DNA from: Tichowtungia aerotolerans
Lineage (GTDB): Bacteria > Verrucomicrobiota > Kiritimatiellia > Kiritimatiellales > Tichowtungiaceae
Reading direction: 5' to 3'
Assembly (NCBI RefSeq): GCF_009905215.1
Contig: NZ_CP047593.1
Location: 1,554,900 to 1,618,899, forward strand
DNA length: 64,000 nt
Under the pieces are notes generated by a model, which searched no databases, was not told the DNA's origin, and saw only the letters and a list, made by a program, of their open reading frames with translations. The position numbers were made by a program, and so were the translations under genes. The stretch's first letter is position 1; each line of letters begins with the position of its first letter. Below are positions 46,367 to 64,000 of this stretch, in pieces.

Positions 46367-48697
46367 TTACACAGGGCATTCTCCGGAGAATGATTTAACG
46401 GTGTGGTGGGTTGTTTCGTCCGGCAGGATGATTTTCAGCGGAATTCCTTCCGGAGCGGTGACCTTTATGGAGAAAATTCCGTTTTCAATTTTCCAAACAC
46501 TGGAAACGTCTCCGTGCGGAGTCGGCGCGGAGCCTTCCGCAAACTGCAGGTCGAGCGGCTGCGGCTGGATCAGGATTTCCTCGAAGCCCGGCTTGGCGGG
46601 TTTGATGCCGAGTACGCCGCGGATAAATTCGATGGACGGGAAGGCGCTCCACGCGTGGCACAGCGAGCGCCAGTAGGTGATGTCCTCCGCCCATGTGCTG
46701 AAGCCGCCGTCGATCATTTCCTGCCAGCGGCCGAGCAGCTGCGGGAATTTGCTGTACTGTCCGCAGTCTTCGAGCGCGCGGATCATGAAGTAAATGCCGA
46801 AGAACGACGCCGGGTCGAGCGATGAATCATTGAGCGCCGCGTTCATGGCGCGCGCGGCCTGTTCGCCGGTCGCCGCGCCGGAGTGAACGGCCCACGCGTT
46901 GCCGTACTGGCTGGCGTCGGGGCTGCCGGGGCAGTCTTCGTAGAGTCCGCGGTCTTCGTTCCAGAACAGTGCGTTGATTTTTTCTGCGACGGTTTCCGCC
47001 TCGTCTGCAAAACGGTTCATCGATTTGTCCAGTTTGGCGGCAACGCGCAGCGCGCGCAGGTATTGCGAGCTGATGATGCAGGTCGGGCCGCGGTCCCAGC
47101 CGGGCGGGCAGCCGCGGTCCCAGCGCGGTGACCAGTCGACGATGTTCCAGTGCGGCAGTTTTGCGGGCAGTCCGCTTTCGTCCTTGTGGCGGTCGAACCA
47201 GTCGAGAATATTGCGGACGCAGGGCAGCAGGTCGCGGACGGTTTCTTTGTCGCCGGTGTAATCATAATAGTCGGCAATCATGAAAATGTAGTGCAGGCTC
47301 CAAGACGGGATGACGACCGGCAGGGTGGCCGGATAGCGGCATTCAGTGATGCCTTCCGGGCGCAGTGACCAGGAAAACTGATAGAGCGCCTGTCTGGTCA
47401 ACCGGGTGTCGCCGGTTCCGGCCAGCGCAATCAGCGAAGTGATCTGGCTGTCGCCGGAATACTGCATCTGCTCGTAATACGGGCAGTCCTCGAAGGTTTC
47501 GTGCGTGCAGAGCCGGAAGGTGCGCCAGCTGATTTTTTCCAGGGTTTGGAAAAAGTCGTCCGAGCATTGGAAGCGGTGTTTCTGCTCAAAGGGGAAAAGT
47601 GCTGTTCTGTATTTGAGAGGCGCTAGCGCCAGCGGTTCGTCGGCGGTTTCGATGGTCAGTTTGACAAACTGGAAGCAGCGCCAGTGGAACGGTTCATAGG
47701 TGAATTCGCCGCCGGGAAGGGTGACTTCGTCGAACCAGCCTTTGAGCTCGCCGCGGCGGTCGAGCGTCCAGCCCGCCTGTTCGCTGTCGTTCATGGTGGA
47801 GACGTTGGAGGTGTCGATGCCGCGCCCGAGGATGGTTGCGTCTTCGACGCTCCACGGCAGGCGCAGCCCTTCGGCGTACATCATCCGAACTTTGGAATTT
47901 TTTCCGCCCGAGGTTTCAAGCAGAGGGAACCCGGTCTGAAGTGCGCCGGCGTCGAGGATGACTTCGACGGTAGTATGGGCCGGGATTTCCGTTGGAGTCT
48001 CGGCGTCGCCGCCGCCGGGCTCGAAGACAGATTCGAACTCTTTGGCTTCGCTTTCGTCGAGTGGCGGGACGATTGCCTCGAGCAGGCCGTAGGGGGAGGG
48101 GGCGTCGCGATAGTCCTCAATGCGGGTCGGCGGGTAAAGCTCGGTTGAGGGCTGCCAGTCGCCGCATTCCGCGGCGGGGGTGACGCGCTCGAAGTAGCCG
48201 ACGAAGCCGCCGTGCGGGCAGCCTTCGTTATGGAATTCATAGCTGCGGTCGACCTGTACCTGCCAGTTTTCGTCGGTGGAGAGTTCCGGCATTTCCTCGC
48301 ATTCGAGCAGGAACCCGCCGGAGCGGGTGATGCTCCAGCACGGCGCGCCGAGTTCCGGCGGGTGGCAGTTGACCTTGGAGAAATCCATGACCAGTGCTTC
48401 GAGTACGTTTTCGCCGGCTTGCAGGTGCGGGGCCAGGTCGACGACGGAGTAGAACTGATGAGCCACATCGCCTTTGGCCGGGCCGCGGACGATAATTTGC
48501 CCGTTGCAGGAGAGCGTGAAGCGGCTGTCGCCAGTGACAGAAACTTCAAGCTTTTGCGGAACGGCATTCAGCTCGAATGTGCGGCGGAAGCGGCGCACTT
48601 CGTAGTGCGATGGGGATCCGTTTTCAGCGCGTTTATAAATATGTTCGCCGGACCAGATCCAGCGGGCGGGACTGTTTTCAGAAAATATCTGTTTCAT
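46367..48697 (-). CDS. GH78-type alpha-L-rhamnosidase (cytoplasmic)
   Basis: 776 aa, no signal peptide. Architecture of GH78: N-terminal beta domains, the DAGALQTGF block near 252, then an (alpha/alpha)6 barrel with THETFEDCPYYEQMQYSGDSQ near 398-418 carrying the acidic residues, and a C-terminal beta domain. Two palindrome copies encode FQTLE (near 385) and SSVWK (near 731). No XylR-type operator seen. Sugar specificity (rhamnose or a related 6-deoxy sugar) is inferred from family. Confidence 0.85.
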   Translation of the reverse strand: MKQIFSENSPARWIWSGEHIYKRAENGSPSHYEVRRFRRTFELNAVPQKLEVSVTGDSRFTLSCNGQIIVRGPAKGDVAHQFYSVVDLAPHLQAGENVLEALVMDFSKVNCHPPELGAPCWSITRSGGFLLECEEMPELSTDENWQVQVDRSYEFHNEGCPHGGFVGYFERVTPAAECGDWQPSTELYPPTRIEDYRDAPSPYGLLEAIVPPLDESEAKEFESVFEPGGGDAETPTEIPAHTTVEVILDAGALQTGFPLLETSGGKNSKVRMMYAEGLRLPWSVEDATILGRGIDTSNVSTMNDSEQAGWTLDRRGELKGWFDEVTLPGGEFTYEPFHWRCFQFVKLTIETADEPLALAPLKYRTALFPFEQKHRFQCSDDFFQTLEKISWRTFRLCTHETFEDCPYYEQMQYSGDSQITSLIALAGTGDTRLTRQALYQFSWSLRPEGITECRYPATLPVVIPSWSLHYIFMIADYYDYTGDKETVRDLLPCVRNILDWFDRHKDESGLPAKLPHWNIVDWSPRWDRGCPPGWDRGPTCIISSQYLRALRVAAKLDKSMNRFADEAETVAEKINALFWNEDRGLYEDCPGSPDASQYGNAWAVHSGAATGEQAARAMNAALNDSSLDPASFFGIYFMIRALEDCGQYSKFPQLLGRWQEMIDGGFSTWAEDITYWRSLCHAWSAFPSIEFIRGVLGIKPAKPGFEEILIQPQPLDLQFAEGSAPTPHGDVSSVWKIENGIFSIKVTAPEGIPLKIILPDETTHHTVKSFSGECPV
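46490..46506. repeat. 17-bp dispersed palindrome, exact arms
   Basis: In the GH78 gene; read as SSVWK. Confidence 0.85.
47536..47552. repeat. 17-bp dispersed palindrome, exact arms
   Basis: In the GH78 gene; read as FQTLE. Confidence 0.85.
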
Positions 48698-49162
48698 AAA
48701 TCATACCTTATGGTTGAAAAGCAGAATCTAAGCAAATGGAAACCGTTCTTGGGCATATTGTTTTAGGTATTTAATTTAATGAAATAAATTTTATATGCGG
48801 ATCGGGCTTGGGAATATCTTAGAGCTGAGTGCCGGAAGACTCTCTCATGGATCAAGAAACGTCGGAAGCCAGTGGAGGGAGTCTGGCTGGCGTTGCATCC
48901 GATCCGTCGAATATTGTCTGGAACAAAGGGACCTTCCGATGAGCTTTTACTTTGATTTGAAGTGCAGGGAAGATTCGAATCAGTGACAGATAAGATGTTT
49001 TGGCAATTTGACTTTGGAGAGCTGTCGTTTCCAGGTATTGGACCTCGCAGATGCGACAGGCAGCAGCGAAAGTGTTGAACGGGGATGAAGCCGGAACAGT
49101 ATAGGCCTGGCTTCAACTGAGAGTGCGTTTTGCTTCACCATTGAAGCGAGAAGTGCGTGAGA
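48698..49162. other. Gene-free stretch
   Basis: AT-rich near 48720-48800, then about 350 bp of mixed composition with one imperfect palindrome copy (49028-49044). Short frames on both strands have no ribosome site or recognisable protein. Nothing else seen. Confidence 0.5.
49028..49044. repeat. 17-bp dispersed palindrome, degenerate right arm
   Basis: Intergenic, TTTCCA-N5-TGGACC. Confidence 0.5.
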
Positions 49163-50224
49163 TCAGCGGCGCCCTTCGGTCGATTCGCGTTTGATAAGTT
49201 CAGTTTCAATTTCGGTAAATCCCGGGGTGTAATCTCTGTTTTTTTCGAGGATATTGAGAAGAGTGTCAATTGCCTGATATGCCTGTTCTTCTACGGGACG
49301 TTTAATGCTGGAAATGGTAGGAGTTGTCATTTGGCAAATCATGGAATCGTCAAATCCGATCACCGCAATGTCCTCCGGAACTTTAAAGTTGAGGTTTCTG
49401 AGGGTTGTGATGCAGTGTGCGGCCAGTTCATCGATCTGGCAGAATATCGCATCTATTTTCTTCAGGTCTTTCAAATTGCTCAGGAGATCGCGAACCGAGT
49501 TCGGGTCGCAGGGGATTGTGTAGATTTTCTGTTTAGTCTGCGGGATTTTGGCAGATATCAGGGCGTCTTTATATCCGCGGGTGCGGTCTTTGAAACACTG
49601 GACGTGTTTGCTGTTTTCCGGAACCAGGGTTATAATATTCTTTTTTCCTGTTTCGAGGAGGTAGTTGACTGCTTTTCTGGCGGCTTTACGGTTGTTGATA
49701 TCAACACAGGGGAGTTTTTTTGAACTGCCGGGCAGGCTGCCGACAAGGACCACCGGGAAGTCGGGCGAGGCAATATCCAGAAATTCTTTATGATTATTGG
49801 TGGGGAGCAGGTAAATCATGCCTTCCAGCAGATCAGATTTAAAGTCCATGTCGGTCAGAGGTTCCGACTTGTTTTCATGACGAATATGAAATACTAGGTC
49901 ATATTTCTTAAAAAGGGGGTGGGATTCCATTGCCTGAACAAACTGGCCGATCTCATTAAAACGGTCCGCCCGGTCAATATAGTCGAGCTTCATGAAAGAA
50001 ACGCCAATGAGGTAAGTGCGGTTGCAGCGAATGACTCGTGCCATTCGATTGGGTTGGTACCCCATGGTTTTGGCTGCGGTCTGTATTTCCTGAATCTTTT
50101 CCGGGCTGACCTGAAAGTTTTTGAATTTCCCGTTTAATACGCGGGAAACCGTTCCCTTATTCACGTTGCAGTGTTCTGCAATCATGTTGAGCGTGACACG
50201 TTTTTTATTCGTTTTTTCTGTCAT
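49163..50224 (-). CDS. LacI-family transcriptional regulator
   Basis: 353 aa. N-terminal LacI HTH (residues 10-35: TLNMIAEHCNVNKGTVSRVLNG) with hinge helix near 55-60 (QPNRMARVI), then the periplasmic-binding-like effector domain (GVSFMKLDY; IFCQIDELA near 264; AVIGFDDS near 288). Divergent from the 50594 gene, so it probably controls the right-hand cluster rather than the XylR regulon. A near-palindromic PurR-like site lies in the intergenic region. Confidence 0.9.
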   Translation of the reverse strand: MTEKTNKKRVTLNMIAEHCNVNKGTVSRVLNGKFKNFQVSPEKIQEIQTAAKTMGYQPNRMARVIRCNRTYLIGVSFMKLDYIDRADRFNEIGQFVQAMESHPLFKKYDLVFHIRHENKSEPLTDMDFKSDLLEGMIYLLPTNNHKEFLDIASPDFPVVLVGSLPGSSKKLPCVDINNRKAARKAVNYLLETGKKNIITLVPENSKHVQCFKDRTRGYKDALISAKIPQTKQKIYTIPCDPNSVRDLLSNLKDLKKIDAIFCQIDELAAHCITTLRNLNFKVPEDIAVIGFDDSMICQMTTPTISSIKRPVEEQAYQAIDTLLNILEKNRDYTPGFTEIETELIKRESTEGRR

Positions 50225-50593
50225 TCAGGTCCGGTTCCGTTTTGAAGAAGGTGCAATGTGGAAATATACATTCTACAGATGGCGGGAGTCAAACAGCATA
50301 ATAAGCGACCGTATTGAGCGGTGTTGAAAACAAAGGCAGAGAGAGGGGGGTAGAGTTTTTTCTTGTGCTTTAAGCAAACGTTGCGTATGTTGTGTTGTAT
50401 TAATCAGGAAGTCAGGTCCGTTTTGGGTGTCGAGCGTTGAGAATAATCATCAGTTTGCCGGGTCGATGACGGAAGCTTCAGGTGTTTTCAGAAAAATTCG
50501 GGATAGAAAGTTTGATATGCGAATCGGTTTTTTTGCCTAGAAACTAAAACGATTCAGAGTGCTGTGCGTTGATAAAAGATTGTGAGGGTTGAA
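50225..50593. other. Divergent control region of the right-hand cluster
   Basis: No gene. Contains AGCAAACGTTGCGT (50374-50387), like the PurR/LacI-type operator ACGCAAACGTTTGCGT with one base missing, and an inverted repeat GAATCG(50521-50526)/CGATTC(50550-50555) about 40 bp before the 50594 start. No copy of the XylR-type operator or the 17-bp palindrome. Confidence 0.5.
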
Positions 50594-51565
50594 ATGTGTA
50601 AAATGATTTTGGATACAGATATTGATATGGATGTCGATGATGTCGGAGCGTTGGCGTTGTGTCATTCGTTAGTGAATCGTGGAGAAATGGAACTGCTCGG
50701 AGTGATCTGTGACAGTGCATCCTCCTCTGCACCGGCTTGTGTGCACGTCATCAATGCGAGCCGGGGGCGTCCGGATATCCCGGTCGGAAGCATTTATTCC
50801 GCAAGTCTGGCGAAACGGCTGGACTATGAAACGCTGCGGCAGGTCATTCCACAGCGCGGCAATGATTTTTATAATCAGGCAATCGCACAAATGAATCCTG
50901 AAGCGGCTGCGCAGCCGGTCTGGAACAGCACCAAGCTGTATCGGAAGTTATTGAGTGAGGCCGAAGACCAATCCGTTGTGATCTGCAGTATTGGTTTTTT
51001 GACGGCGCTTTCGGATCTGCTGGTTTCTGCTCCGGATGAATGGAGTGAGCTGGATGGTCGGTCGCTGGTTGAGCGTAAAGTTAAAAAACTGCTGACCATG
51101 GCTGAAGCATATCCGACCAACGGGTATGAGGTCTGTAACTGGGTGATTGATCTGGAAGCGGCAACGCATGTGCTGAAGGAGTGGCCGACCGAGCTGGTTA
51201 TCAGTCCGCTGGGAATCAATGTTTGGACCGGCGGCACGTTGTCCGATGTATGCCCAGAAAATGACCCGGTTCGGCGGGCGTATGAAATTTACAAGCGCGG
51301 GCCGAATTTGCCGCAGCAGAGCTGGGATTTGATTTCCGTGTATTACTGCGTCCGCGGGTGCGATGATTTGTTCCGTGAGCATGCCGAAGGGCATTGCTAT
51401 CTGAATCCGCTTAACGGCCATTACCAGTGGGGTGAAGCCAATCACCACGTTAAGGAACACATTTTACTGGAACAGATTACAGAGGATTGTCGGGTTGAAG
51501 ATCGGATTGAGGGTCTGCTGAAACCGAATGCTGTTCAGCGTGAATTATCGGTGGAAATTTGCTAA
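50594..51565 (+). CDS. Nucleoside-hydrolase-like protein
   Basis: 323 aa, inosine-uridine nucleoside hydrolase fold. The calcium-binding Asp cluster appears at residues 7-16 (DTDIDMDVDD), a variant of the family DTDxGxDD, with later IGFLTALSDL and NVWTGG segments. Such proteins recur in polysaccharide-utilisation clusters, where they may act on other glycosides; substrate unknown. ATG 50594 has GAGGG upstream; GTG 50582 is the alternative. First gene after the LacI divergent region. Confidence 0.78.
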   Translation: MCKMILDTDIDMDVDDVGALALCHSLVNRGEMELLGVICDSASSSAPACVHVINASRGRPDIPVGSIYSASLAKRLDYETLRQVIPQRGNDFYNQAIAQMNPEAAAQPVWNSTKLYRKLLSEAEDQSVVICSIGFLTALSDLLVSAPDEWSELDGRSLVERKVKKLLTMAEAYPTNGYEVCNWVIDLEAATHVLKEWPTELVISPLGINVWTGGTLSDVCPENDPVRRAYEIYKRGPNLPQQSWDLISVYYCVRGCDDLFREHAEGHCYLNPLNGHYQWGEANHHVKEHILLEQITEDCRVEDRIEGLLKPNAVQRELSVEIC

Positions 51566-51590
51566 AATGGCGCTTTTTCGAAGGGAAACA

Positions 51591-53303
51591 ATGAAGATGA
51601 AAATTTTACTGAGTTTGCTGCTGTCTGCTGTTCTTGCGGGGACATGTTCTGCAATGAACACTTTGTATATTGAAGATTTCGGCGCCGTGGGTGATGGGAA
51701 GCAGGATGATATCGCAGCGATTGTTAAAGCAATCGATGCGCTGAAAAGCGGCGATACACTGGAGTTTTCTGCCGGAAAGATCTATCGGCTCGGCCTGCGG
51801 GACGACAGTATTGCACAGATTGACCTGCAGAACATGACCAATGTGACTGTCAACGGAAACGGATCCATGATGCTGACGACTCCGCGGCAGGCGGCAATCC
51901 GGGTGAAGCATTGTGAAAATGTGACCGTGAAAGGATTTGTGATTGAGCAGGACCCGCTGGCTTTTACTCAGGGAGCCATTACAAAGATTCTTCCCGAAGA
52001 GGGGGTTTTTGAAATGAAGATCATGGAAGGATACGACCTCCTTCCAACGGACGAAATGCGTAAGGCGGCAGGTTTTCCCGGCTGGGAGTGGGGAGCAATC
52101 CTTGATCAAAGCCAGCGTCGGATTCGACGCGGTGTTCGAGACCATTTCAGATCAACCCGCATTGAGCACTTAGGAGAGAGACTTTATCGGGTTTATTTGC
52201 AGCAGGGATTTGTTGACGATTTGAAACAGGTGCAAGTCGGCGACATTTACTTTCAGCCGATTCAATATAACGTGCAGAGCCGCCTGTCCAGAATTGACGG
52301 AGGTCGCTACGCCGCCAGTATCCATGTGACCAATAGCGGGGATTGCCTGATTGAAAATATTACGCTGTACAGCGGACGCAGCTCGATGACCAGCCGGGTG
52401 GATCTCAATTATGGACGGATCACGTTCCGCGGATTCAAGGTGATGTTCCGCCCGGGAACCGACCGGATTGTTACCAACTGGCGCGACGGGATGCACTGCA
52501 AGGACAACCGCATCGGGCCGATCATTGAGGACTGCTATTTCGAGGGAATGCTTGATGACAGCATCAACCTCAGCCAGAACACAATTATGGCAGCAGAGAA
52601 ACTGACGGATAGGACTTTCCGGATGCGGAAAAACGAAGGACCGGAACGTTGGACGAAATATTCATCCAGCATCTGGTTGGGTGATGAAATTATGGTGTTT
52701 TATCCGACGACAGGAGAGTATGCAGGTCCCTTGAGGGTGATTACTGTGGACCCGAATGCGCCCGACACCATTACATTTGATCAGCCGGTGAAAAACGTGG
52801 TTCTGGCTTCCGGGCAGACTGGGGGAGCGGCAGATAAACACACGACACATTTTTACAACATGAATATGTGTAATGCCGGATTCATCGTGCGTAACAACAG
52901 GTTTCTGCCGCAGCGCCGTCATGCCGTTCTGACCCGCAGTATCGACGGGGTGATCGAAAATAATGTTATCGACGGCGTCGGGGGACACGGCATTGAAATC
53001 CAGAATGAATACGGCCATTTCTACGAAGGTCCGTTTCCGCAGAATATCCTTATTCGCAACAACACGATCCGGAATACGTATAACTCACCGATTCGGGTTT
53101 GCACGCAGTCCGGACAGGCAGGCGTCCAGGTTGTTCGCAATATACGTATGGAAGGAAATATCATTACTTCGGATGAACCGGCGATTGAACTGGAGAACGT
53201 GTCAGACGTGATGATTGAAAACAACCGGTTTTACGCTTTGGACGGAAACGTGATGAGAAATCCGGTCCATATGGAAAACTCGATCGACGTTAAAATAAAG
53301 TAA
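51591..53303 (+). CDS. Secreted right-handed parallel beta-helix enzyme (GH110/GH28-like)
   Basis: 570 aa with signal peptide (ending GTCSA). It begins with the pectate-lyase-superfamily N-cap (DFGAVGDGKQDD) followed by parallel beta-helix turns (NVTVKGFVI, NCLIENITLYSG-like, CYFEGMLDDSINLSQN, GFIVRNNRFLPQRRHAVL). The DDSIN turn and RRHAVL arrangement resemble GH110 alpha-galactosidases, but GH28-like activity is also possible. Shine-Dalgarno AAGGGA. It is a paralogue of the C-terminal 550 residues of the 59435 protein. Confidence 0.8.
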   Translation: MKMKILLSLLLSAVLAGTCSAMNTLYIEDFGAVGDGKQDDIAAIVKAIDALKSGDTLEFSAGKIYRLGLRDDSIAQIDLQNMTNVTVNGNGSMMLTTPRQAAIRVKHCENVTVKGFVIEQDPLAFTQGAITKILPEEGVFEMKIMEGYDLLPTDEMRKAAGFPGWEWGAILDQSQRRIRRGVRDHFRSTRIEHLGERLYRVYLQQGFVDDLKQVQVGDIYFQPIQYNVQSRLSRIDGGRYAASIHVTNSGDCLIENITLYSGRSSMTSRVDLNYGRITFRGFKVMFRPGTDRIVTNWRDGMHCKDNRIGPIIEDCYFEGMLDDSINLSQNTIMAAEKLTDRTFRMRKNEGPERWTKYSSSIWLGDEIMVFYPTTGEYAGPLRVITVDPNAPDTITFDQPVKNVVLASGQTGGAADKHTTHFYNMNMCNAGFIVRNNRFLPQRRHAVLTRSIDGVIENNVIDGVGGHGIEIQNEYGHFYEGPFPQNILIRNNTIRNTYNSPIRVCTQSGQAGVQVVRNIRMEGNIITSDEPAIELENVSDVMIENNRFYALDGNVMRNPVHMENSIDVKIK

Positions 53304-53352
53304 AAAAATAAATATAGAATTTATTGTGTAAACAAAGATGGGGAATTGTGAA

Positions 53353-55191
53353 ATGAAAATGATAAGAAAGAGAGCTCATTGTTGCATCGCTTCTGTTACT
53401 GCAATGTTGTGTATTTTTGGCAGCATGGTTCATGCAGCTCCAGTGAATGTTTGGCTGGATAATGGGACAAAGGCTCCCGGGTCAACAAGTTCCGGAACGG
53501 CCTATAACGGCTTACGGGATGCAACCTGGGATGTGACCGCGACAGAGGAAAACGGTTTGGCAGATATCGGGGCGGCGGTCATGAACGTTAGACTGGTCAG
53601 TTTTATTCATAACGGTAATTCTAGGAAGAGTACAGATGGTGGTGGAAACGGGTTAGCCGTTTACTCAGGAAGTAATAATTTCTGGATGGATGCCCTTAAC
53701 CATGAGGGCGTGGCCTTTCAACTGAAATTTTATAGTGACGCTGCCAAGACAGAGGAAATTACGGATCTGGATATTACGTTTAAGTCTCTCATGGCACGGA
53801 CTGCCAGTTCCAATCTGGCGGTGAATGTGTATGCGGGATCGGGAGAGTTGGCGATCAGTGGAGATGCAACAAATGATACGGACATGGTCACGCTGGACGG
53901 GACCGATCTGGGTATTACATACGACAGCACATTGGCGTTTGCGGGAGAGACGGATCTGATTCCGTCCGGCTTTATTGGAACAGGCTTTTATACAATCAGC
54001 GGAACGGATGCGGTTACTTTCGGTGAGGAAGATACCTTCTGGCTTCGTCGTTATAATTTGAATTCCCAGGCGGATACTGCTTATCAGGTTGCAAATCTTG
54101 CTTTCGATGTTGTACCGAAGCCGGCAACGGTCTCTGTGTGGCTGGATGACGGGACAAAAGCGCCCGGATCAACAAGTGCCGGTACCTCCTATGCCAACCT
54201 GCGGGATGGAGCATGGGATGTTACCGCGACACAAGAAAATGGTTTAGCAGATATTGGGGCGGCAGTTATGAGTGTCAGGCTGGTCAGTTTTATTCATAAC
54301 GGTAATTCCCGTAAGAGTACAAACGGTGGAGGAAATGGGTTAACCGTTTATTCAGGGAGTAATAATTTCTGGATGGACGCTGTTAACTATGAGGGTGCGG
54401 CTTTTCAGCTGAAATTTTATAGTGACCTTTCCAAAACACAGGAAATCAAAGGAATGGATATCACTTTCAGATCCATCATGGTACGAACCGCTAATGCCAA
54501 TCTGGCGGTGAATGCATATGCCGGATCCGGCGCGCTGGCAATCAGCGGTGACGGCACGAATGATACGGATATGGTGTCTTTGGACGGAGCGGACATGGAT
54601 TATAGCAGTGACAGTGCCAATTCATTTGCAGAAGAAACAGATTTAGTTCCTATCGGTTTCAATGGTCCAGATTTCTACACGGTAAATGGAACCCATGCGA
54701 TCACCTTCAGCGAAGACGACACATTCTGGGTTCGTCGTGATAATTTGAATGGTGCAAGCGATACTGCCTATCAGGTGGCGAATCTTACTTTTGAGCTGCA
54801 AAAAATCGGTGGTTATGATGGATGGGCGGCCGGCTACGGTCTTCAGGAACCGGCAACCGGTGATGATGACAATGATGGACTGAGTAATCTCCAGGAATAC
54901 GGATTGGGAGGGAATCCGACCAATGCGCTTGATCAAGGAATTTCTCCTGTTTGTTCAGTGATGGAACAGAGCGGAAGCAATGTGTTCCATTATGTATATC
55001 CTCAATTGTCTGATCCAAGCAGCGGTTTAACCTACTACCTTGAGCTTAATACAGACCTGGTATCCGGTACTTGGACAAATACGGGGTATATTGTTGCCGG
55101 GACCAATCTTACTGGCGGAACATTTGATTTTGTCACAAACACCACGGATATGGCTTCTGATGTTAAGTTTATCCGACTGGTGGTTGAGTAG
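53353..55191 (+). CDS. Secreted protein with two copies of a novel ~220-aa domain and a calcium-loop tail
   Basis: About 612 aa with signal peptide (ending MVHA). Two tandem domains (nt about 53443-54110 and 54130-54798), each starting VxVWLDxGTKAPGSTS, with NGLADIGAAVM, GGGNGLxVYSGSNNFWMD and a final DTAYQVANL strand. I do not recognise the family; beta-rich and Asn/Gly-rich, like a carbohydrate-binding or adhesion module. The tail has a calcium-type loop DDDNDGLSNLQEY and a terminal beta unit shared with the 17148 and 19805 proteins. No catalytic domain, so a binding or sorting role is likely. Confidence 0.8.
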   Translation: MKMIRKRAHCCIASVTAMLCIFGSMVHAAPVNVWLDNGTKAPGSTSSGTAYNGLRDATWDVTATEENGLADIGAAVMNVRLVSFIHNGNSRKSTDGGGNGLAVYSGSNNFWMDALNHEGVAFQLKFYSDAAKTEEITDLDITFKSLMARTASSNLAVNVYAGSGELAISGDATNDTDMVTLDGTDLGITYDSTLAFAGETDLIPSGFIGTGFYTISGTDAVTFGEEDTFWLRRYNLNSQADTAYQVANLAFDVVPKPATVSVWLDDGTKAPGSTSAGTSYANLRDGAWDVTATQENGLADIGAAVMSVRLVSFIHNGNSRKSTNGGGNGLTVYSGSNNFWMDAVNYEGAAFQLKFYSDLSKTQEIKGMDITFRSIMVRTANANLAVNAYAGSGALAISGDGTNDTDMVSLDGADMDYSSDSANSFAEETDLVPIGFNGPDFYTVNGTHAITFSEDDTFWVRRDNLNGASDTAYQVANLTFELQKIGGYDGWAAGYGLQEPATGDDDNDGLSNLQEYGLGGNPTNALDQGISPVCSVMEQSGSNVFHYVYPQLSDPSSGLTYYLELNTDLVSGTWTNTGYIVAGTNLTGGTFDFVTNTTDMASDVKFIRLVVE

Positions 55192-55235
55192 AGCCGCTCA
55201 TAAAGAGCTGAAATTTTCAGACAGGAAAAGAAGAC

Positions 55236-56774
55236 ATGAAACGACGTGATTTTTTAGGGACAACCGTTGCTGGTTCCGCTGGAACGGTGGCGGCCGGCAG
55301 CCTTCGAGGTGCATTTAAAAATAGGCCTAATATTATTTATGTGGTGGTGCATGATCTCGGGCGCTACTTCAGTCCGTATGGAGTTCCGATCGATACGCCC
55401 AACCTGCAGGCATTTGCGGAGGGCGGCATTACGCTGGACAACGCCTGCTGTGGTGCGCCGCCATGCAGTCCGTCGCGGGCCTGTGCCATGAGCGGTAAGT
55501 ATTCTCACTCCAATGGAATGACCGGGTTGCATGGTCATGAGTGGTCTTTGACCACGGAGTGCAAGACCATCGTGGATTATTTGAATCAGGCCGGGTACGA
55601 AACCGCCTGGGCCGGTTTTCAGCATGAACGGCATGATCCTGCGGATAATCATTATCAGAGGAATCTCAATCTGATTCATCAGGAAGAAGGAAAGCCGGAT
55701 GTATTTGTAGAGAATGCAGTGGATGCAGCCATCGAATATCTGAAGACCGGACGGGATCGAAGTCGTCCATTCTATCTGAATATTGCGACGCAGGATGTGC
55801 ATGGAAGTTTGTGGATTCCGGGGGGCTATTACACTAAAAAATTTGATCGTCCACACACTGTGTACGGCATTGATGACCCGTCGAAGGTTTACATACCCGC
55901 CCAATGTCCGGATAACGAACAGACCCGACAGAGCTTTGCCCGTTTCGTTCCGTGCATCCGCCACATGGATTCGCAATTTGGCCGTCTGGTTGATGCCGTA
56001 GATCGCTTGGGGTTGCGCGAAAATACTTTGTTTATTTTCACCACTGATCACGGAATTCTGGGCAGTCGTGCAAAGGGGACGGTCTACGAACGAGGAACGG
56101 AAATCGGGACAATCATGCAGATGCCCGGTGTTATCAAAGCGGGCGACCGCATGAAGGAACTGGTCAATAATATCGATTTTCTGCCGACATTTTTAGAGGC
56201 CGCCGGTGTTCGTTGTTCGCCGAAGCCGGAGGTGCAGGGACGATCTTTCTGGGCGCGTTTGTGCGGAAAGAAATATATTCCAAGCGAAGCCATTTTCACT
56301 GAGCGGAATTGGCATGAAAACTACGACCCTGTTCGTACGGTGCGGACAAAGAGATACCATTACCTGCTTAATCTGCATCCCGGGGCAAAACGCCATTTGC
56401 TCCCCGAAGAAATTCTGAATCATACAAACCCGGTGGTGCGGCGTTCCTGGCCGAACCGGTATGTATGGTGCGGAGATTTTGACAGGCCGGATAGTTCATA
56501 TTTCCGCTTTTTTGAGCCGCGCCCGAGAGAAGAACTTTACGACTTGGAAAATGACCCGGAGGAATTCGTGAACCTTGCCGATGATCCGGCATATCAGAAA
56601 ATTAAAGAAGAGCTGGCTGCGAAATGTAAGCGGTGGATGGCAGAAACGAACGATCCTGTATTGGCAGGTCCTATTCCGCTTCCGCCGGGCAGCCACCTTA
56701 AGGAGATTTTGAATCAACGCATGGCCCGTTCAGAATCCATGAGCCAGGGAGAGCTTGATCTGCTCCGCGATTAA
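55236..56774 (+). CDS. Exported Cys-type sulfatase with Tat-like leader
   Basis: Family S1 sulfatase of 512 aa. N-terminus MKRRDFLGTTVAGSAG looks like a Tat signal (twin arginine). Formylglycine motif CSPSR starts at Cys77; FTTDHG near 270 supplies metal ligands, and the length and layout recall the N-sulfoglucosamine sulfohydrolase-like S1 group. Unlike the two sulfatases at 31-34 kb it is exported, so it desulfates the polymer or large fragments outside the cytoplasm. 44 bp after the preceding gene, probably one transcript. Confidence 0.88.
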   Translation: MKRRDFLGTTVAGSAGTVAAGSLRGAFKNRPNIIYVVVHDLGRYFSPYGVPIDTPNLQAFAEGGITLDNACCGAPPCSPSRACAMSGKYSHSNGMTGLHGHEWSLTTECKTIVDYLNQAGYETAWAGFQHERHDPADNHYQRNLNLIHQEEGKPDVFVENAVDAAIEYLKTGRDRSRPFYLNIATQDVHGSLWIPGGYYTKKFDRPHTVYGIDDPSKVYIPAQCPDNEQTRQSFARFVPCIRHMDSQFGRLVDAVDRLGLRENTLFIFTTDHGILGSRAKGTVYERGTEIGTIMQMPGVIKAGDRMKELVNNIDFLPTFLEAAGVRCSPKPEVQGRSFWARLCGKKYIPSEAIFTERNWHENYDPVRTVRTKRYHYLLNLHPGAKRHLLPEEILNHTNPVVRRSWPNRYVWCGDFDRPDSSYFRFFEPRPREELYDLENDPEEFVNLADDPAYQKIKEELAAKCKRWMAETNDPVLAGPIPLPPGSHLKEILNQRMARSESMSQGELDLLRD

Positions 56775-56865
56775 AAATCCTTATAAGAAAAAGCGAGTTT
56801 TCAGGGAGAAATCTAAAACAATTTAACCGCGTCTGGGGAGGCGGGTATTGTTGTTGAAAAATGAT

Positions 56866-59259
56866 ATGAATAAGGCGTTTAACAGATCTTTGAATGGGTA
56901 TTTTAGGAACATCAGCATTGTTTGTGTGTTTTTGTCTGCGTTTTCAATCCAGACCTTTCGGGTTATAGGTGCGCAGGTTTCAGTTTGGCTGGATGACGGC
57001 ACAAAAGCGTCTGGATCAACCAGCGCCGGACAGGCATTTGCTGGCAGTCGGGATGCGTCATGGGATGTGATTGTTTCTCAGGAAAGTGGCTTGGCCGATA
57101 TCGGTGCGGCCGTGATGAGTGTTCGTGTTGTCAGCTTCATTCATAATGGCGATTCGCGCCAGTCGACAACCGGTGGCGGGAACGGGTTAACTGTTCGCAG
57201 CGGAAGCAATAATTTCTGGTTCGATGCGCTTAATTATGAAGGAACGGCCTTTCAGCTGAAGTTCTACAGCGATGCTTCCAAAACCGTTGAAATCACTGAT
57301 TTGGGAATTACTTTCAAGTCGGTCATGGTGCGGACGGCCAATGAAAATCTGGCGGTGAATGCATATGCCGGAACCGGAGAACTTGTAATCAGCGGTGAAA
57401 GCACGAATGATACGGACAAAGTGTCATTCGGTGGCAATGACATGATTTATACTGACGACAGTTCCAGTTCGTTTGCGCAAGAGACAGGTTTGGTACCTCT
57501 TGGGTTTGCTGGAACCGGTTTTTATACAATCAATGGAACCGATGCGATTACCTTCACTGAAGACGATACGTTCTGGCTTCGGCGATATAACCTGAATGAA
57601 ACTTCCGATACGGCGTATCAGGTGGCGGCTTTGACATTCTCCGTTCAGGAGGGCGGGGCGGCTTCTCATTTGACGGATGAAGGGTGGAGATATGTTCTTG
57701 CTCCCGCTGAATCTGTTTGCATAAAGGGCGGGGCGGCTTCATTGAAAAATCAGAACGGCAAACCGCTTGTTGTAAAGCGGATGGACGATGTGGATGGATA
57801 TTCAGCTGTACTGGTGAAGTATGATCTGACCGAGTTGCCGTTGGAAACTTCAGTAAACAGTATAATTCAGCATTGGGTGAGCGGATCGGGGTCTGGATCA
57901 AATCCATCTATTGCAGTTTATGCTGTCGACAACGATTGGGATGCGGAAACTGTTACCTGCGATTCTGCTCCGCAGAAACTGGAGCGACTTACAGAAGTTA
58001 CAATGCCGGTAAACGTAGACACCTCGATTCCTTTTCCGGTTACAGAATATTTTAAGGATCATTTAACTAATGATATTGTTTCTCTTTTGTTTGAAATGCG
58101 CAGCTCTGCCGGATTTTCTCAAGAGGTCGAGTTTTTCGAAGTCCCGTTGCTTAAAACCGCGAAGGATGAGGCGGTTTTGTATGACCGGGAAGCGCTGCTT
58201 CGACCGGTTTGGTCCGGTGATCGAATCGAAAACGAAACCCTGATGCCGATTTCCTATACCGGACAGTTGGCTCAGGCTGATTTGACGTTGCTTCCGTCGC
58301 GAATTATATCGGTAAAAAACTATGCGCTTAATATATCTTATCAGGAGGGGGTGGACTATATCATTGATGGTCGGACATTGCGTCTGACGGAAAACAGTTC
58401 CATTCCTTTTTTTGAATATGACGAGCTTTATACGGATGATCCGGACGCCGATCCGGATGTCCGTTCTGCGCTGGAAGGCGGTTATCTTCTTTATACTGAA
58501 TCAGCATTTTTTAACAACCGGCAATTAGCGGTTACCTATAAACACGAAGCAGGCTGGGGCGGTCCGGTGCCGCAGTGCGCCGAAGCAACTTTGCCGAAAA
58601 CGTTCCAAATATTGGAAAACGGCGATTCGCTTAAACTGCTGGTTTTCGGCGACAGCATTTCAGTCGGTGCCAGCGCCAGCGGCCAGCGCATTCGCGAGCC
58701 ATGGATGCCGCGCTGGGCGGATCTGGTAGCCGATCAGCTTGAGAGAACATACGGGTCTCAGATTGAGTATATTAATCCGTCACAGGGGGGAACTGTTTCA
58801 GAATGGGGACGTGAAACGATCGATGGGCTGGTTTCGTTTGAGCAGCCGGATCTGGTGATTTTGGGATTCGGCATGAATGATGGGGGTGGAGCTTCTCCAG
58901 TCAACGCCGATCAGTTTGCTGAAAATATTAGCGCGATCATGACTTCGATCCGCAGTCAGAATCCGGCTGTGGAATTTATTCTTCTCATGTCTTTTCAGCC
59001 AAACAGTAAATGGCGCAGTTTGGATCCAATGCCGGGTTATCTGACAGCGATAAGTGCAATGGCGGGCGATGGAGTTGCGATCGCAGATATCTGGTCTCTT
59101 CATGAATATCTGCTGGAGCAAAAAACCTACGAAGACATGACTGCTAACCATATTAATCATCCGAATGATTTTATTGTAAGGATCTATGCCCAGACGCTGC
59201 TTACGAAGTTGGGGGCTGCTCCGGACTGCAGTAGCGGGATGGTGTTTACATTACGGTAG
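56866..59259 (+). CDS. Secreted SGNH/GDSL esterase with one novel domain
   Basis: About 797 aa. N-terminal signal-anchor-like segment (SIVCVFLSAFSIQTF), one copy of the ~220-aa VSVWLDDG domain (nt about 56976-57650), a DNRLRE/CBM96-like beta domain (to about residue 400), an uncharacterised linker domain, and an SGNH hydrolase at the C-terminus: block I FGDSIS (Ser near 596), block II GGTVSEWG, block III GFGMND, block V HINHPND. Likely an acetyl-esterase on the glycan. FQILE near 581, just before block I, is the only palindrome copy in 49-64 kb. Confidence 0.83.
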   Translation: MNKAFNRSLNGYFRNISIVCVFLSAFSIQTFRVIGAQVSVWLDDGTKASGSTSAGQAFAGSRDASWDVIVSQESGLADIGAAVMSVRVVSFIHNGDSRQSTTGGGNGLTVRSGSNNFWFDALNYEGTAFQLKFYSDASKTVEITDLGITFKSVMVRTANENLAVNAYAGTGELVISGESTNDTDKVSFGGNDMIYTDDSSSSFAQETGLVPLGFAGTGFYTINGTDAITFTEDDTFWLRRYNLNETSDTAYQVAALTFSVQEGGAASHLTDEGWRYVLAPAESVCIKGGAASLKNQNGKPLVVKRMDDVDGYSAVLVKYDLTELPLETSVNSIIQHWVSGSGSGSNPSIAVYAVDNDWDAETVTCDSAPQKLERLTEVTMPVNVDTSIPFPVTEYFKDHLTNDIVSLLFEMRSSAGFSQEVEFFEVPLLKTAKDEAVLYDREALLRPVWSGDRIENETLMPISYTGQLAQADLTLLPSRIISVKNYALNISYQEGVDYIIDGRTLRLTENSSIPFFEYDELYTDDPDADPDVRSALEGGYLLYTESAFFNNRQLAVTYKHEAGWGGPVPQCAEATLPKTFQILENGDSLKLLVFGDSISVGASASGQRIREPWMPRWADLVADQLERTYGSQIEYINPSQGGTVSEWGRETIDGLVSFEQPDLVILGFGMNDGGGASPVNADQFAENISAIMTSIRSQNPAVEFILLMSFQPNSKWRSLDPMPGYLTAISAMAGDGVAIADIWSLHEYLLEQKTYEDMTANHINHPNDFIVRIYAQTLLTKLGAAPDCSSGMVFTLR
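58602..58618. repeat. 17-bp dispersed palindrome (GTTCCA-N5-TGGAAA)
   Basis: In the SGNH esterase gene; read as FQILE. Only copy right of 49 kb. Confidence 0.75.
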
Positions 59260-59280
59260 GTTTTAAGGCCGATAAGATCA

Positions 59281-59312
59281 CGCACTGTACGTGCGCAAAA
59301 CGATGGCATCGT
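59281..59312. repeat. Two adjoining short palindromes before the 59435 gene
   Basis: CGCAC-TGTAC-GTGCG (59281-59295) and ACGATG-G-CATCGT (59300-59312). They could form terminator or operator structures between the esterase and the next gene. The internal TGCGCAA lacks a partner at 22 bp, so this is not a XylR-type site. Confidence 0.4.
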
Positions 59313-59434
59313 ATCTGTGGCTGAAAAGGAAAATCAATGTATGGACTGTTGGTTTGCTTAGTGAGCCATGCTGAATTGAGGAAAAAGAAACATGAGGCTG
59401 AAAAAAATTGTTGGCTCTGAAACGATAGAGGAAC

Positions 59435-62400
59435 ATGGCTTGGGAAAATAAAATTAAGCGATGGGGGGCATGGTTAGTGTCTGCGTTCTTATGGATGCAT
59501 TCTGTTGCAGGAGCGATGATGGTCGTGTTGACGACCGGAACGGGATCGGATGCGCAGGCAGAGCAGATTGCGATCTGGTTGGATGACGGCAGCCAGGCTC
59601 CTGGGTCAACAAGTACTGGTCAAGATTATGCGAATCTGCGAGATGCTTCGTGGGATGTCCCCGCTACGCTGGAGAACGGGTTGAGCGACATTGGAGCTGC
59701 TGTTATGACAGTCCGCATGGTCGGCTTTAATGTCAACGGGAATTCACGCCAGCTGACGACCGGTGGAGGCAATGGTTTGGCTGTTAAGACGGGCAGTAAT
59801 AATTACTGGATGGATGGAATCAATCATGAAGGAGCAGCCTTCCAGTTTACCTTTTATAGTGACTTGGCCAAAACGGATGAAGTCTCCGGGGTGGGCATTG
59901 TTTTTGACTCACTTTGTCTTCGCACCGCAAGCAGCGACCTTGCCCTGGATGCGTTTGCCGGATTCGGACAACTGACAGTTGATGGGACTTTTGATACATC
60001 AACGGTATCCCTTGGAGATGTTCGGATGACCAGTCAGGCGGATAGTATGATGGCATTTGTTTCGGATAAGAACCTGACTCCTGAAAATTTTTCAGGTACG
60101 GGATGGTATACTGTTAATGCCAGTCAGGAGGTTGTTTTCACAGAGAAAGATACGTTCTGGGTGCGAAGAAAAAATATGAGCGATGCTTCGGATTCAGCCT
60201 TTCAGATTGGTGGTATAACATTTCATGTTTATCGAAAAGGGTTGGTGAATGTCTGGTTGGATGACGGAGCCAGCGCCCCGGGATCGACGAGCGACGGCCA
60301 GTCCTTTGCGAATCAACGGAATGCAAATTGGAATGTGTATGCGACATCCGAAAACGGCCTTGCCGATATTGGAGCTGCGGTTATGGCCGTCCGTTTGGTC
60401 AGCTTTATGAGCGCCGGCTATTCCCGTGAATCAACAACCGGTGGTGGCAGCGGACTAAGTGTTCGTTCCGGTTCCAACAGCTTTTGGATGGATGCCCTCA
60501 ATTATGAAGGGGCCGCTTTTATGCTCTATTTTTATGAAGACCTAGCAAAAACAACGCCGATTACAGATGTAAATATCACCTTCAAATCGCTTTGTGTCCG
60601 AACGGCAAATGCCAATTTGGCACTGGATGTATATGCCGGGAACGGAGGTGTGTCTCTTGCCTCCAATCCGAATGATTCCTCTTCGGTGACACTCGGCGGG
60701 AATGTGCTGGAATATACCAGTGACAGCGCCAATTCGTTTGCGGAAGAAACCGGTTTGGCGCCATCTGGATTTTCCAGAACAGGGTTTTATACGGTGCATG
60801 GGAATGATACTGCTACCTTCCAGAGCGGAGACACTTTTTGGGTTCGCCGAAAAAACACCGGCGGAGCTTCCGATGCCGCCTTTCAGCTTGCTGGGCTTTC
60901 TTTTACGATTCAGAGACCGGTGTCGGTTCATGATTTCGGTGCGGTCGGAGATGGAGTTACCGATGATATTGAGGCGGTGGTCAACGCGGTTAAGAGTGTG
61001 CGGGCCGATGGCCCCGGGGCTATTTTGACATTTGAGGCTGAAAAGACATATAAGCTTGGGTTGCGCGAAAACAGTATTTTCCAGATTGATCTGCTTGGAG
61101 CATCGCATCTCACAATTAACGGCAACGGCTCTACATTGCTCAACACGCCCCGCCAGGCCAGTTTTCGTTTGAAACATTGCAACGGGGTTACGGTTAAAAA
61201 TTTCAAAATCAAGCAAAGTCCGCTGGCATTTACACAGGGAGTTATCACAAACATAAACTCCGTTGCAGGAACATTTGAGATGACGCTCATGAGGTATTTC
61301 CCGGATCTTCCAACCGATACGCAACGCACAGCAATGGGAGTAGATTACTGGGATTGGGGAGCGATTCTTGATCCTGATCTGAAATATATACGATGGGGAA
61401 CATATAACCATTACTATATCAATAGCATTACAAACATCGGGCCGCGCAGATATCAGGTAACTGTGGAGCCGGAATTCGCTTCGGGATTGGCGGGAGCTCG
61501 CAACGGGGATGTTTTTGTTCAACCTATCCAATGGAACTATCAGGATCGGCTTGCTGCAATCGATGGAAATCGGTATTCGCCGAATATTCATGTAACTCTC
61601 AGTGAAGATTGCCTACTGGAAGATATTACACTTTACAGTGGACGCAGCTCAATGTGCAACCTGGTTGATTACAATTATGGATTGATTACCTATCGGAATT
61701 TCAGGGTTGAGGTGCCTCCTTCCGAACCCATTCGGTTTGTGTCGAATTGGCGAGGTGGTTTTAACTGTAAAAACAATCGAATTGGGCCTGTGATTGAAAA
61801 TTGTCATTTCGAATCCATTTTGGACGACAGCATTAATATGAACCAGACTCCGGTAATGGCTGCCGAGATTGTTTCCAGCACTGAGTTTAAAATGAGTCCG
61901 GACGGATGGACCGCAGATGAGGCTCAGTTTTTCGAAGGAGATCAGGTGATGGTTTTTTATCCTCCGACGGGAGTGTATACAGGGCCATTTACGGTGGCAT
62001 CTGTTGATTCGGATTATCCTGAAATGGTTACATTTTTTTCGTCGGTTCCAAATGTCGTAACCGGGACTGTCGCAGGTGTATCCGCAACCAATGCAACACA
62101 GTTTTTTAATATGGACATGTGTTCCAGAGGATTTGTTGTTCGGGGTAACAGTTTTGGTCCTCAGCGCCGACATGCTGTTTTGGTCCGAAGTCCGGATGGA
62201 TTGATTGAAGGGAATGCGATTAATGGAGTCGGGGGCAATGGAATCATACTTGAGAATGAAAACGTAGCTGGCTGTCGCGAAGGGCCGTTCCCTCAAAATA
62301 TCGTTATTCAAAGTAATACGGTTTGTTCTCAATGGACGCCGATTCGCATAGCAGCAGATAGCGGAAGCATATGTACTCAGCCGGTCACAAATATTTATAT

Positions 62401-62557
62401 CACCGGTAACACGATTGTTGCAGCTGAAGAGATCGCGATTAAGTTGGATAATGTCAGGGATCTATTGATTTCCAGTAATGAATATCTGAATACAAATTTT
62501 AATTTCTTGGCTGATCCTGTTTATCAGACAAATTCGATTAATATCATGATTCAATGA
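59435..62557 (+). CDS. Secreted beta-helix enzyme fused to two novel domains
   Basis: 1040 aa with signal peptide (WLVSAFLWMHSVAGA). Two tandem copies of the ~220-aa domain (IAIWLDDG from nt about 59568; VNVWLDDG from about 60246), then a parallel beta-helix (from DFGAVGDGVTDD, residue about 500) closely related to the 51591 protein: PRQASFRLKHC against PRQAAIRVKHC, and PQRRHAVLVRSPDG against PQRRHAVLTRSIDG. Probably the same or similar glycan activity (GH110/GH28-like) with added substrate-binding modules. Shine-Dalgarno GAGGA. Confidence 0.82.
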   Translation: MAWENKIKRWGAWLVSAFLWMHSVAGAMMVVLTTGTGSDAQAEQIAIWLDDGSQAPGSTSTGQDYANLRDASWDVPATLENGLSDIGAAVMTVRMVGFNVNGNSRQLTTGGGNGLAVKTGSNNYWMDGINHEGAAFQFTFYSDLAKTDEVSGVGIVFDSLCLRTASSDLALDAFAGFGQLTVDGTFDTSTVSLGDVRMTSQADSMMAFVSDKNLTPENFSGTGWYTVNASQEVVFTEKDTFWVRRKNMSDASDSAFQIGGITFHVYRKGLVNVWLDDGASAPGSTSDGQSFANQRNANWNVYATSENGLADIGAAVMAVRLVSFMSAGYSRESTTGGGSGLSVRSGSNSFWMDALNYEGAAFMLYFYEDLAKTTPITDVNITFKSLCVRTANANLALDVYAGNGGVSLASNPNDSSSVTLGGNVLEYTSDSANSFAEETGLAPSGFSRTGFYTVHGNDTATFQSGDTFWVRRKNTGGASDAAFQLAGLSFTIQRPVSVHDFGAVGDGVTDDIEAVVNAVKSVRADGPGAILTFEAEKTYKLGLRENSIFQIDLLGASHLTINGNGSTLLNTPRQASFRLKHCNGVTVKNFKIKQSPLAFTQGVITNINSVAGTFEMTLMRYFPDLPTDTQRTAMGVDYWDWGAILDPDLKYIRWGTYNHYYINSITNIGPRRYQVTVEPEFASGLAGARNGDVFVQPIQWNYQDRLAAIDGNRYSPNIHVTLSEDCLLEDITLYSGRSSMCNLVDYNYGLITYRNFRVEVPPSEPIRFVSNWRGGFNCKNNRIGPVIENCHFESILDDSINMNQTPVMAAEIVSSTEFKMSPDGWTADEAQFFEGDQVMVFYPPTGVYTGPFTVASVDSDYPEMVTFFSSVPNVVTGTVAGVSATNATQFFNMDMCSRGFVVRGNSFGPQRRHAVLVRSPDGLIEGNAINGVGGNGIILENENVAGCREGPFPQNIVIQSNTVCSQWTPIRIAADSGSICTQPVTNIYITGNTIVAAEEIAIKLDNVRDLLISSNEYLNTNFNFLADPVYQTNSINIMIQ

Positions 62558-62579
62558 GTTTTAAAGGAATAAGGAGTAG

Positions 62580-64000
62580 ATGGAATCAGACGAAAAAAAT
62601 ATTGCAGGCCTATCGCATTGTGACTGGCCTGCAAAATGGATCGGACATGAGTGGGGACAGCCCTGTGCATTGCTTCGTCAATCGGTTTTGGTAAATAAAC
62701 CTGTGCGAACCGCTCGCATTCATGCCACAGCATTGGGGTTGTTCGAATTGCGGCTCAACGGAAAAAAAGTCGGAAACAGTGAACTGTTGCCGGGTTGGAC
62801 CGATTACCGTAAACGGGTTTACTCTCATTCATTTGATATAACCGATCGGATTGTTTCCGGTGAAAATGTGATCGGCGGCATGGTTGCGCCCGGCTGGTTT
62901 GCCGGGCATATCGGCTGCTTCGGCGATAAAGGTTTCTACGGGCGCGATCCGTGGTTTTCCGCTGTGCTCAAACTCGACTATGAGGACGGCACATCCGGGG
63001 AACTTGTCACCGATCCAGCTTGGAAGGCTTCTGCAGGCGCGGTTGTCGGCGCGGACCTGCTGATGGGTGAAGAATACGATGCACGCAAGGAGATAGCCGG
63101 TTGGGACATGCCGGGCTTTGACGATACGGAGTGGAAAAATGCGGTATTGTTTCGTCCCGAAGAGGAAGTGCTGCCCGAGCGAATTGAGCCATACCCCGGC
63201 GTGCCGGTCCAAACAATTGCTGAACTTCCGGCACAAAGCATTACCGAACCAAAACCCGGCGTGTTTGTTTTTGATCTTGGCCAGAATATGGTCGGAGTGG
63301 TTCGTTTGAAATTGAGCGGCGTTCCTCGCGGAACCGAAATTATCTTAAAACACGGGGAGATGATTGAGCCGGAAGGAACCGTTTATACGGCGAACCTGCG
63401 TTCAGCCAGGGCCGTCGACCGTTACTTTGCCAAAGGTGATGACGAAGAAATCTGGCAGCCGCGCTTTACCTTTCACGGATTTCGATATGTTCAGCTTGAA
63501 GGGCTGCCTGCCGGAATCATTCCTCAGCTCGGCACCGTAACCGGTGTGGTGTGGATGTCCGGCCTGAACGAGACGGCATCGTTTGAATGCTCAAACGAAA
63601 AGGTCAACCGTCTGTTTGAAAACATTCGCTGGGGCTTCCGCGGCAACTATCTGGAAGTGCCGACCGACTGTCCGCAGCGCGACGAACGCCTCGGCTGGAC
63701 CGGTGATGTCCAAATCTTCATTCCTTCCGCCGCGTATCTCGCGGATATTCGTCCTTTTTATGAAAAATGGCTGGTGGATCTGCACGATGCACAGTGCCCG
63801 AACGGTGGCTATCCCGATGCTGCGCCGTTTCTCGGCCGTATGCATTATGCCAGTGCCGGGTGGGGTGATGCCGGAATCATCTGTCCGTACACCCTGTGGC
63901 AAATGTACGGCGACCTCGAATTTATCCGTCCGTGGTGGAATTCCATGAAAAAATACATGGAGTTGATCTGCACGGATGACAATCGCCACAATGGCCCGGC
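62580..64000 (+). CDS. GH78-type alpha-L-rhamnosidase, cut by the window end
   Basis: At least 473 residues; the frame is open to the right edge. Start ATG 62580 with Shine-Dalgarno AAGGAG, 22 nt after the preceding stop. No signal peptide. GH78 layout: N-terminal beta domains (WPAKWIGHEW; LRLNGKKVG), the conserved FVFDLGQNMVGVVRLKL block near 223-239, and DCPQRDERLGWTGDVQIF near 363-380, the family's catalytic signature. More canonical than the GH78 at 46367. It probably belongs to the LacI-linked cluster, which would release rhamnose. Confidence 0.88.
   Translation, partial: MESDEKNIAGLSHCDWPAKWIGHEWGQPCALLRQSVLVNKPVRTARIHATALGLFELRLNGKKVGNSELLPGWTDYRKRVYSHSFDITDRIVSGENVIGGMVAPGWFAGHIGCFGDKGFYGRDPWFSAVLKLDYEDGTSGELVTDPAWKASAGAVVGADLLMGEEYDARKEIAGWDMPGFDDTEWKNAVLFRPEEEVLPERIEPYPGVPVQTIAELPAQSITEPKPGVFVFDLGQNMVGVVRLKLSGVPRGTEIILKHGEMIEPEGTVYTANLRSARAVDRYFAKGDDEEIWQPRFTFHGFRYVQLEGLPAGIIPQLGTVTGVVWMSGLNETASFECSNEKVNRLFENIRWGFRGNYLEVPTDCPQRDERLGWTGDVQIFIPSAAYLADIRPFYEKWLVDLHDAQCPNGGYPDAAPFLGRMHYASAGWGDAGIICPYTLWQMYGDLEFIRPWWNSMKKYMELICTDDNRHNGP

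Follow-up and report, generated by a model that had tools for sequence, protein, structure and literature searches.

A domain family in five copies in secreted proteins of a putative polysaccharide-utilisation cluster of Tichowtungia aerotolerans

The gene cluster, the five units and their host proteins

The window, meaning the whole stretch of 64 000 nucleotides analysed here, comes from the genome of Tichowtungia aerotolerans, a single contig of 3.88 Mb. A gene cluster occupies its last part and runs on past its end (Table 1). In order, the cluster holds genes for a LacI regulator, a nucleoside-hydrolase-like protein, a beta-helix protein, a protein made largely of two copies of the domain described below (the unit), a sulfatase, a CBM96-esterase and a two-unit beta-helix protein, and then for a GH78 alpha-L-rhamnosidase, an MFS_2 sugar transporter, a third beta-helix protein, an AraC-type regulator, GH65 and a GH13-like protein. 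From its gene content the cluster reads as a putative polysaccharide-utilisation locus. Members of Kiritimatiellota degrade sulfated algal polysaccharides, and their sulfatases and glycoside hydrolases are often found together (PMC10880615). The G+C fraction is about 0.48-0.50 in the cluster (48000-64000 and on into the adjoining locus L031) versus about 0.49-0.58, mostly above 0.51, in the upstream 48 kb, and it climbs again downstream, about 10 kb past the window. This dip suggests that the cluster may be a recently acquired island.

Table 1. Features of the cluster in window coordinates
Feature	Position	Strand	Length	Basis or remark
LacI-family regulator	49163-50224	-		flanks cluster
Unit-free beta-helix paralogue	51528-53303	+		beta-helix directly after signal peptide; 49% identical
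Signal peptide, two-unit protein	53353-53439	+		ORF 53338-55191; by eye
Unit A	53443-54114	+	224 aa	alignment and genome search
Unit B	54130-54801	+	224 aa	alignment; 73% identical to A
C-terminal DDDNDGLSNLQEY...-type domain	54802-55188	+		41 matches genome-wide
Sulfatase	55236-56774	+		PF00884, E 3.7e-42; between unit proteins
Signal peptide, esterase protein	56866-56973	+		ORF 56848-59259; by eye
Unit C	56977-57648	+	224 aa	alignment
CBM96/DNRLRE domain	57760-58113	+		Pfam PF24517, above cut-off, E 5.4e-8
GDSL/SGNH esterase domain	58642-59169	+		Pfam PF13472, E 5.8e-13
Signal peptide, beta-helix protein	59435-59560	+		by eye
Unit D	59567-60232	+	222 aa	alignment; most diverged of five
Unit E	60245-60913	+	223 aa	alignment
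Right-handed beta-helix domain	60926-62554	+		49% identical to unit-free protein at 51528
GH78 alpha-L-rhamnosidase	62580-63998	+		L031:2579-4816; extends past window

The five units align with at most two gapped positions at pairwise identities of 52.7-73.7%, far above chance, and 85 of the 224 columns are invariant across all five. A DNA repeat finder returned the same five copies, in register. Units A, B and C group together at 71-74% identity; E is 59-62% identical to that group, and D stands at 53-56%. Because D is the most diverged and E is nearer to A/B/C, D and E are no recent tandem pair, though they lie side by side. For unit pairs with unsaturated dS, dN/dS is 0.11-0.16, so the protein sequence of the unit is held by purifying selection.

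Signal peptides of the three host proteins were judged by eye from the translation. Protein 53338-55191 consists of a signal peptide, A, B and a DDDNDGLSNLQEYGLGGNP-type C-terminal domain; the start used earlier, 53353, is an in-frame ATG five codons into this ORF. Neither Pfam nor NCBIfam recognised a catalytic domain in it. Its C-terminal domain (DDDNDGLSNLQEYGLGGNP ... YxLExxxDL ... FIRL) has 41 matches in the genome, its own included, in large open frames with non-self identities of 29-59%, and is therefore a general part in this genome. Pfam and NCBIfam give this domain no name; possibly it is a signal for sorting or anchoring. Protein 56848-59259 (start 56866 in the earlier analysis) is built of a signal peptide, C, the CBM96/DNRLRE domain and the GDSL esterase, and protein 59435-62557 of a signal peptide, D, E and the right-handed beta-helix.

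An earlier note, made from the letters of this DNA, had described a domain of about 220 residues in five copies, which is borne out by the lengths, identities and shared register given above. The motifs that it quoted recur with slight changes: EGAAF becomes EGVAF/EGTAF in A and C, and FWMD becomes FWFD/YWMD in C and D. It placed the copies in three consecutive secreted proteins; there are three, but they are not strictly consecutive because the sulfatase gene separates the first from the second. The position next to the signal peptide, given as invariable, holds for the first unit of each protein but not for B and E, which come after another unit. The DNRLRE-SGNH esterase said to follow one unit was recognised by Pfam in both its domains. 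For the beta-helix assigned to the third protein, the Pfam signal is below cut-off in that protein itself but above it in the paralogue at 51528.

Homologues without the unit

Both kinds of functional part have homologues that lack the unit. In a congener, an esterase 56% identical to the 56848 protein has none, and residues 274-789 of the 56848 protein align from its residue 25; an esterase paralogue in the same genome, also unit-free, aligns likewise from its own residue 26. In the unit-free esterase homologue, the start of the alignment is directly behind the signal peptide. Among the beta-helix proteins of the cluster, residue 498 of the 59435 protein corresponds to residue 48 of the paralogue 51528-53303, and residue 482 to residue 11 of the unit-free third one (L031:6579-8750). 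For the beta-helix homologues listed from other genomes, the open frames measure just 378-632 aa. As the unit-free homologues align from directly behind the signal peptide, the units occupy precisely the joint where the signal peptide meets the functional part, a clean insertion that directly supports the portable module proposed in the earlier note.

Reading the DNA around a different match turned up a related beta-helix protein of 935 aa (24-26% identity), encoded by a further genome of the class (L057:3167-5971, minus strand). Where D and E sit in the 59435 protein, it carries a different N-terminal module and a DGLSNL-type domain. The location of the units at this joint, which accepts different modules, is the strongest result of the analysis.

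Relatives of the unit and its predicted fold

Profile and sequence searches of Pfam, NCBIfam, PHROGs and PDB sequences named no family for the unit, in keeping with the earlier note, which knew of no family with this signature. No CBM model of Pfam or NCBIfam matches any unit at E <= 1, and the sole CBM match, to CBM96, falls outside the unit. Nor did any unit match a PHROGs family, a phage or a viral contig, as a viral or phage receptor-binding module might. The best PDB-sequence match, spanning 34 residues at E 0.0014, was to 'Bagel' designs and the related cell-surface protein; it was judged to be chance, and no stretch passes alone. The unit is a real family, and apparently an undescribed one as far as these four libraries go.

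AlphaFold was run on the five-sequence alignment with B (pLDDT 54.3, pTM 0.59) and E (pLDDT 57.8, pTM 0.61) as queries. Both models have almost no helix and about ten strands, predicted near residues 45-53, 72-76, 80-85, 89-97, 110-120, 126-132, 182-186, 191-194, 198-204 and 213-222. The unit is likely a beta-sandwich by prediction. Foldseek found nothing for these low-confidence models in the PDB at E <= 0.001; its many insignificant matches include jelly-roll CBMs and xylanases. Fold matches were not used as family evidence because both models stayed below pLDDT 60.

These results bear on ancestry, where a reading compatible with any of the roles discussed below makes the unit a strongly diverged member of a described beta-sandwich family (CBM, concanavalin-like or sorting-associated) lying beyond the reach of profiles. 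We give this slightly less than an even chance. The all-beta prediction in both models and the presence of several jelly-roll CBMs among the insignificant fold matches point that way, and the shallow alignments (at most seven rows) limit sensitivity; against it, no Pfam or NCBIfam family at E <= 1 credibly covers the unit, and no PDB sequence match is of note.

Two further copies, F and G, are probable homologues on the evidence of profile comparisons. They lie in a 966-aa secreted protein of the same genome (L016:4799-7699; G000:C1 about 2.691 Mb), about 1.1 Mb away, and are 25-27% identical to the units. The five-unit profile finds them at E 0.005 and 0.011 per genome, which is the weak direction; in the reverse search the F/G profile finds window units at E 7.7e-5 and 3.5e-4. 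In the shuffling control, the F/G profile scored 20.9-24.8 bits on the three window proteins versus at most 11.1 in 3000 shuffled sequences, and the five-unit profile scored 17.7 bits on the 966-aa protein versus at most 15.1, again in 3000. Profile-profile comparison aligned 75 columns at 35% identity with probability 69. Few invariant residues survive in F and G: they have W81, R119, Q215 and the GGxxG block, but lack W4, W200, R202 and R203. The F/G protein adjoins a rhamnosidase-type gene and two sulfatases, together with a histidine kinase and a response regulator. The last two lie directly upstream (L016:1366-4658), a histidine kinase whose N-terminal half is LamG-like by eye and then a LuxR-type response regulator; they are possibly a polysaccharide-sensing two-component system.

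Among the genomes searched, the unit family is confined to this one. No credible copy was found in 13 congeners (several of them incomplete genomes), in the remainder of the order, in 346 genomes of the class by profile search, or in 289-388 genomes sampled from the phylum with three different profiles. Pattern scans with two alignments of the genome_contigs set, and of viral_contigs, gave no relatives, such scans reaching close relatives only, and tblastn of the unit against plasmids and phages gave nothing. Weak profile matches at four loci were rejected: one is antisense to a gatB-like frame (L019), one lies in a restriction-system region (L015), and at the other two (L014 and L028) the profile fits only loosely to secreted proteins that are long and repeat-like. 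In two genomes from one family of the class (L027 and L029) a stretch WWIRRxDLxEQxDT... in open frames resembles, at E 0.003-0.008, the unit's last strand towards the C-terminus, FWxRRxNLxxxSDTAYQVANL. The likeness is curious but may be chance; being short and below a safe threshold, the stretch was excluded from the unit copies.

A candidate substrate-binding module

The reading we favour, and hold to be moderately probable, is that the unit is a new non-catalytic all-beta accessory module, most likely CBM-like, that would hold the proteins of the cluster on their substrate polymer. Duplication of the domain would have placed units behind the signal peptides of secreted proteins of one polysaccharide-utilisation cluster. 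The unit would bind the substrate of that cluster, probably a sulfated, acylated, rhamnose-containing polysaccharide, and would keep the esterase and the beta-helix protein on the polymer; the two-unit protein, having no recognised catalytic domain, would be a binding-only protein.

A glycan-binding role is plausible from the all-beta prediction, the position of the units, the non-enzymatic two-unit protein and the gene company, namely the sulfatase, the CBM96-GDSL esterase, the three beta-helix proteins, GH78, MFS_2, GH65 and the LacI- and AraC-type regulators. From the sulfatase, esterase and GH78, from the neighbours of F and G and from the habit of Kiritimatiellota, we infer that the units bind the polymer of the cluster; the fold and the substrate are likewise inferred. 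Counting against this reading are the absence of sequence or structural matches to carbohydrate-binding families, the models below pLDDT 60 and the few invariant residues that F and G keep. The neighbouring genes by themselves would suit an anchoring or structural module as well as one that binds sugar.

The main rival is a module for surface retention or spacing, which would tether secreted proteins to the envelope or matrix, or hold the functional part off the surface, and bind no substrate. The first units always stand directly after the signal peptide, and the two-unit protein without an enzyme bears the C-terminal domain common to 41 places in the genome, as this rival would have it; yet that domain is itself the better anchor candidate, the unit occurs only in three proteins of the cluster and one other where a general anchor would be expected throughout the genome, and the same enzymes have unit-free homologues in genus and genome. 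We consider it unlikely. A scaffold, perhaps held together through unit-unit contacts, that joins the two-unit protein with the esterase and the beta-helix protein would account for one module in three products of a single cluster, including a two-unit protein in which no enzyme was recognised, but it is improbable, given that no cohesin- or dockerin-like partner family was recognised in the three window proteins and that the cluster's sulfatase is unit-free.

Under the favoured substrate-binding reading, the nearest comparison is with the beta-sandwich CBMs of CAZymes. Like them, the unit is discrete, apparently non-catalytic, predicted to be all-beta and found in tandem copies, and it lies at one end of polysaccharide-active enzymes as a cleanly inserted module that is present in some and absent from their homologues. 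It differs in having no similarity to any Pfam CBM model and in occurring in one genome only, and its binding is putative. CBM96/DNRLRE (PF24517), described as alginate-specific (PMC9971899), is likewise an accessory module N-terminal to the GDSL esterase that carries unit C, but it is a separate domain (residues 305-422) which the unit does not match, and the region aligning with it is kept in the unit-free esterase homologue. The N-terminal module of the 935-aa protein occupies the place of the units ahead of a related beta-helix; its sequence is another one, with no credible unit match, and the DGLSNL-type domain follows it.

The unit is another accessory-domain family of polysaccharide-degrading proteins, a kind often found, rather than a new kind of system, and is apparently lineage-restricted. 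To our knowledge, binding modules for sulfated algal polysaccharides are few. A tentative proposal, which we think may well prove wrong, is that the unit founds a new CBM family whose target is a marine polysaccharide, sulfated and probably containing rhamnose, and that recent domain duplication has spread it inside a single lineage only. Kiritimatiellota carry many sulfatases, most of them with targets yet to be identified (PMC10880615). The enzyme homologues with and without the unit form a natural pair of constructs with which the contribution of an acquired module could be measured.
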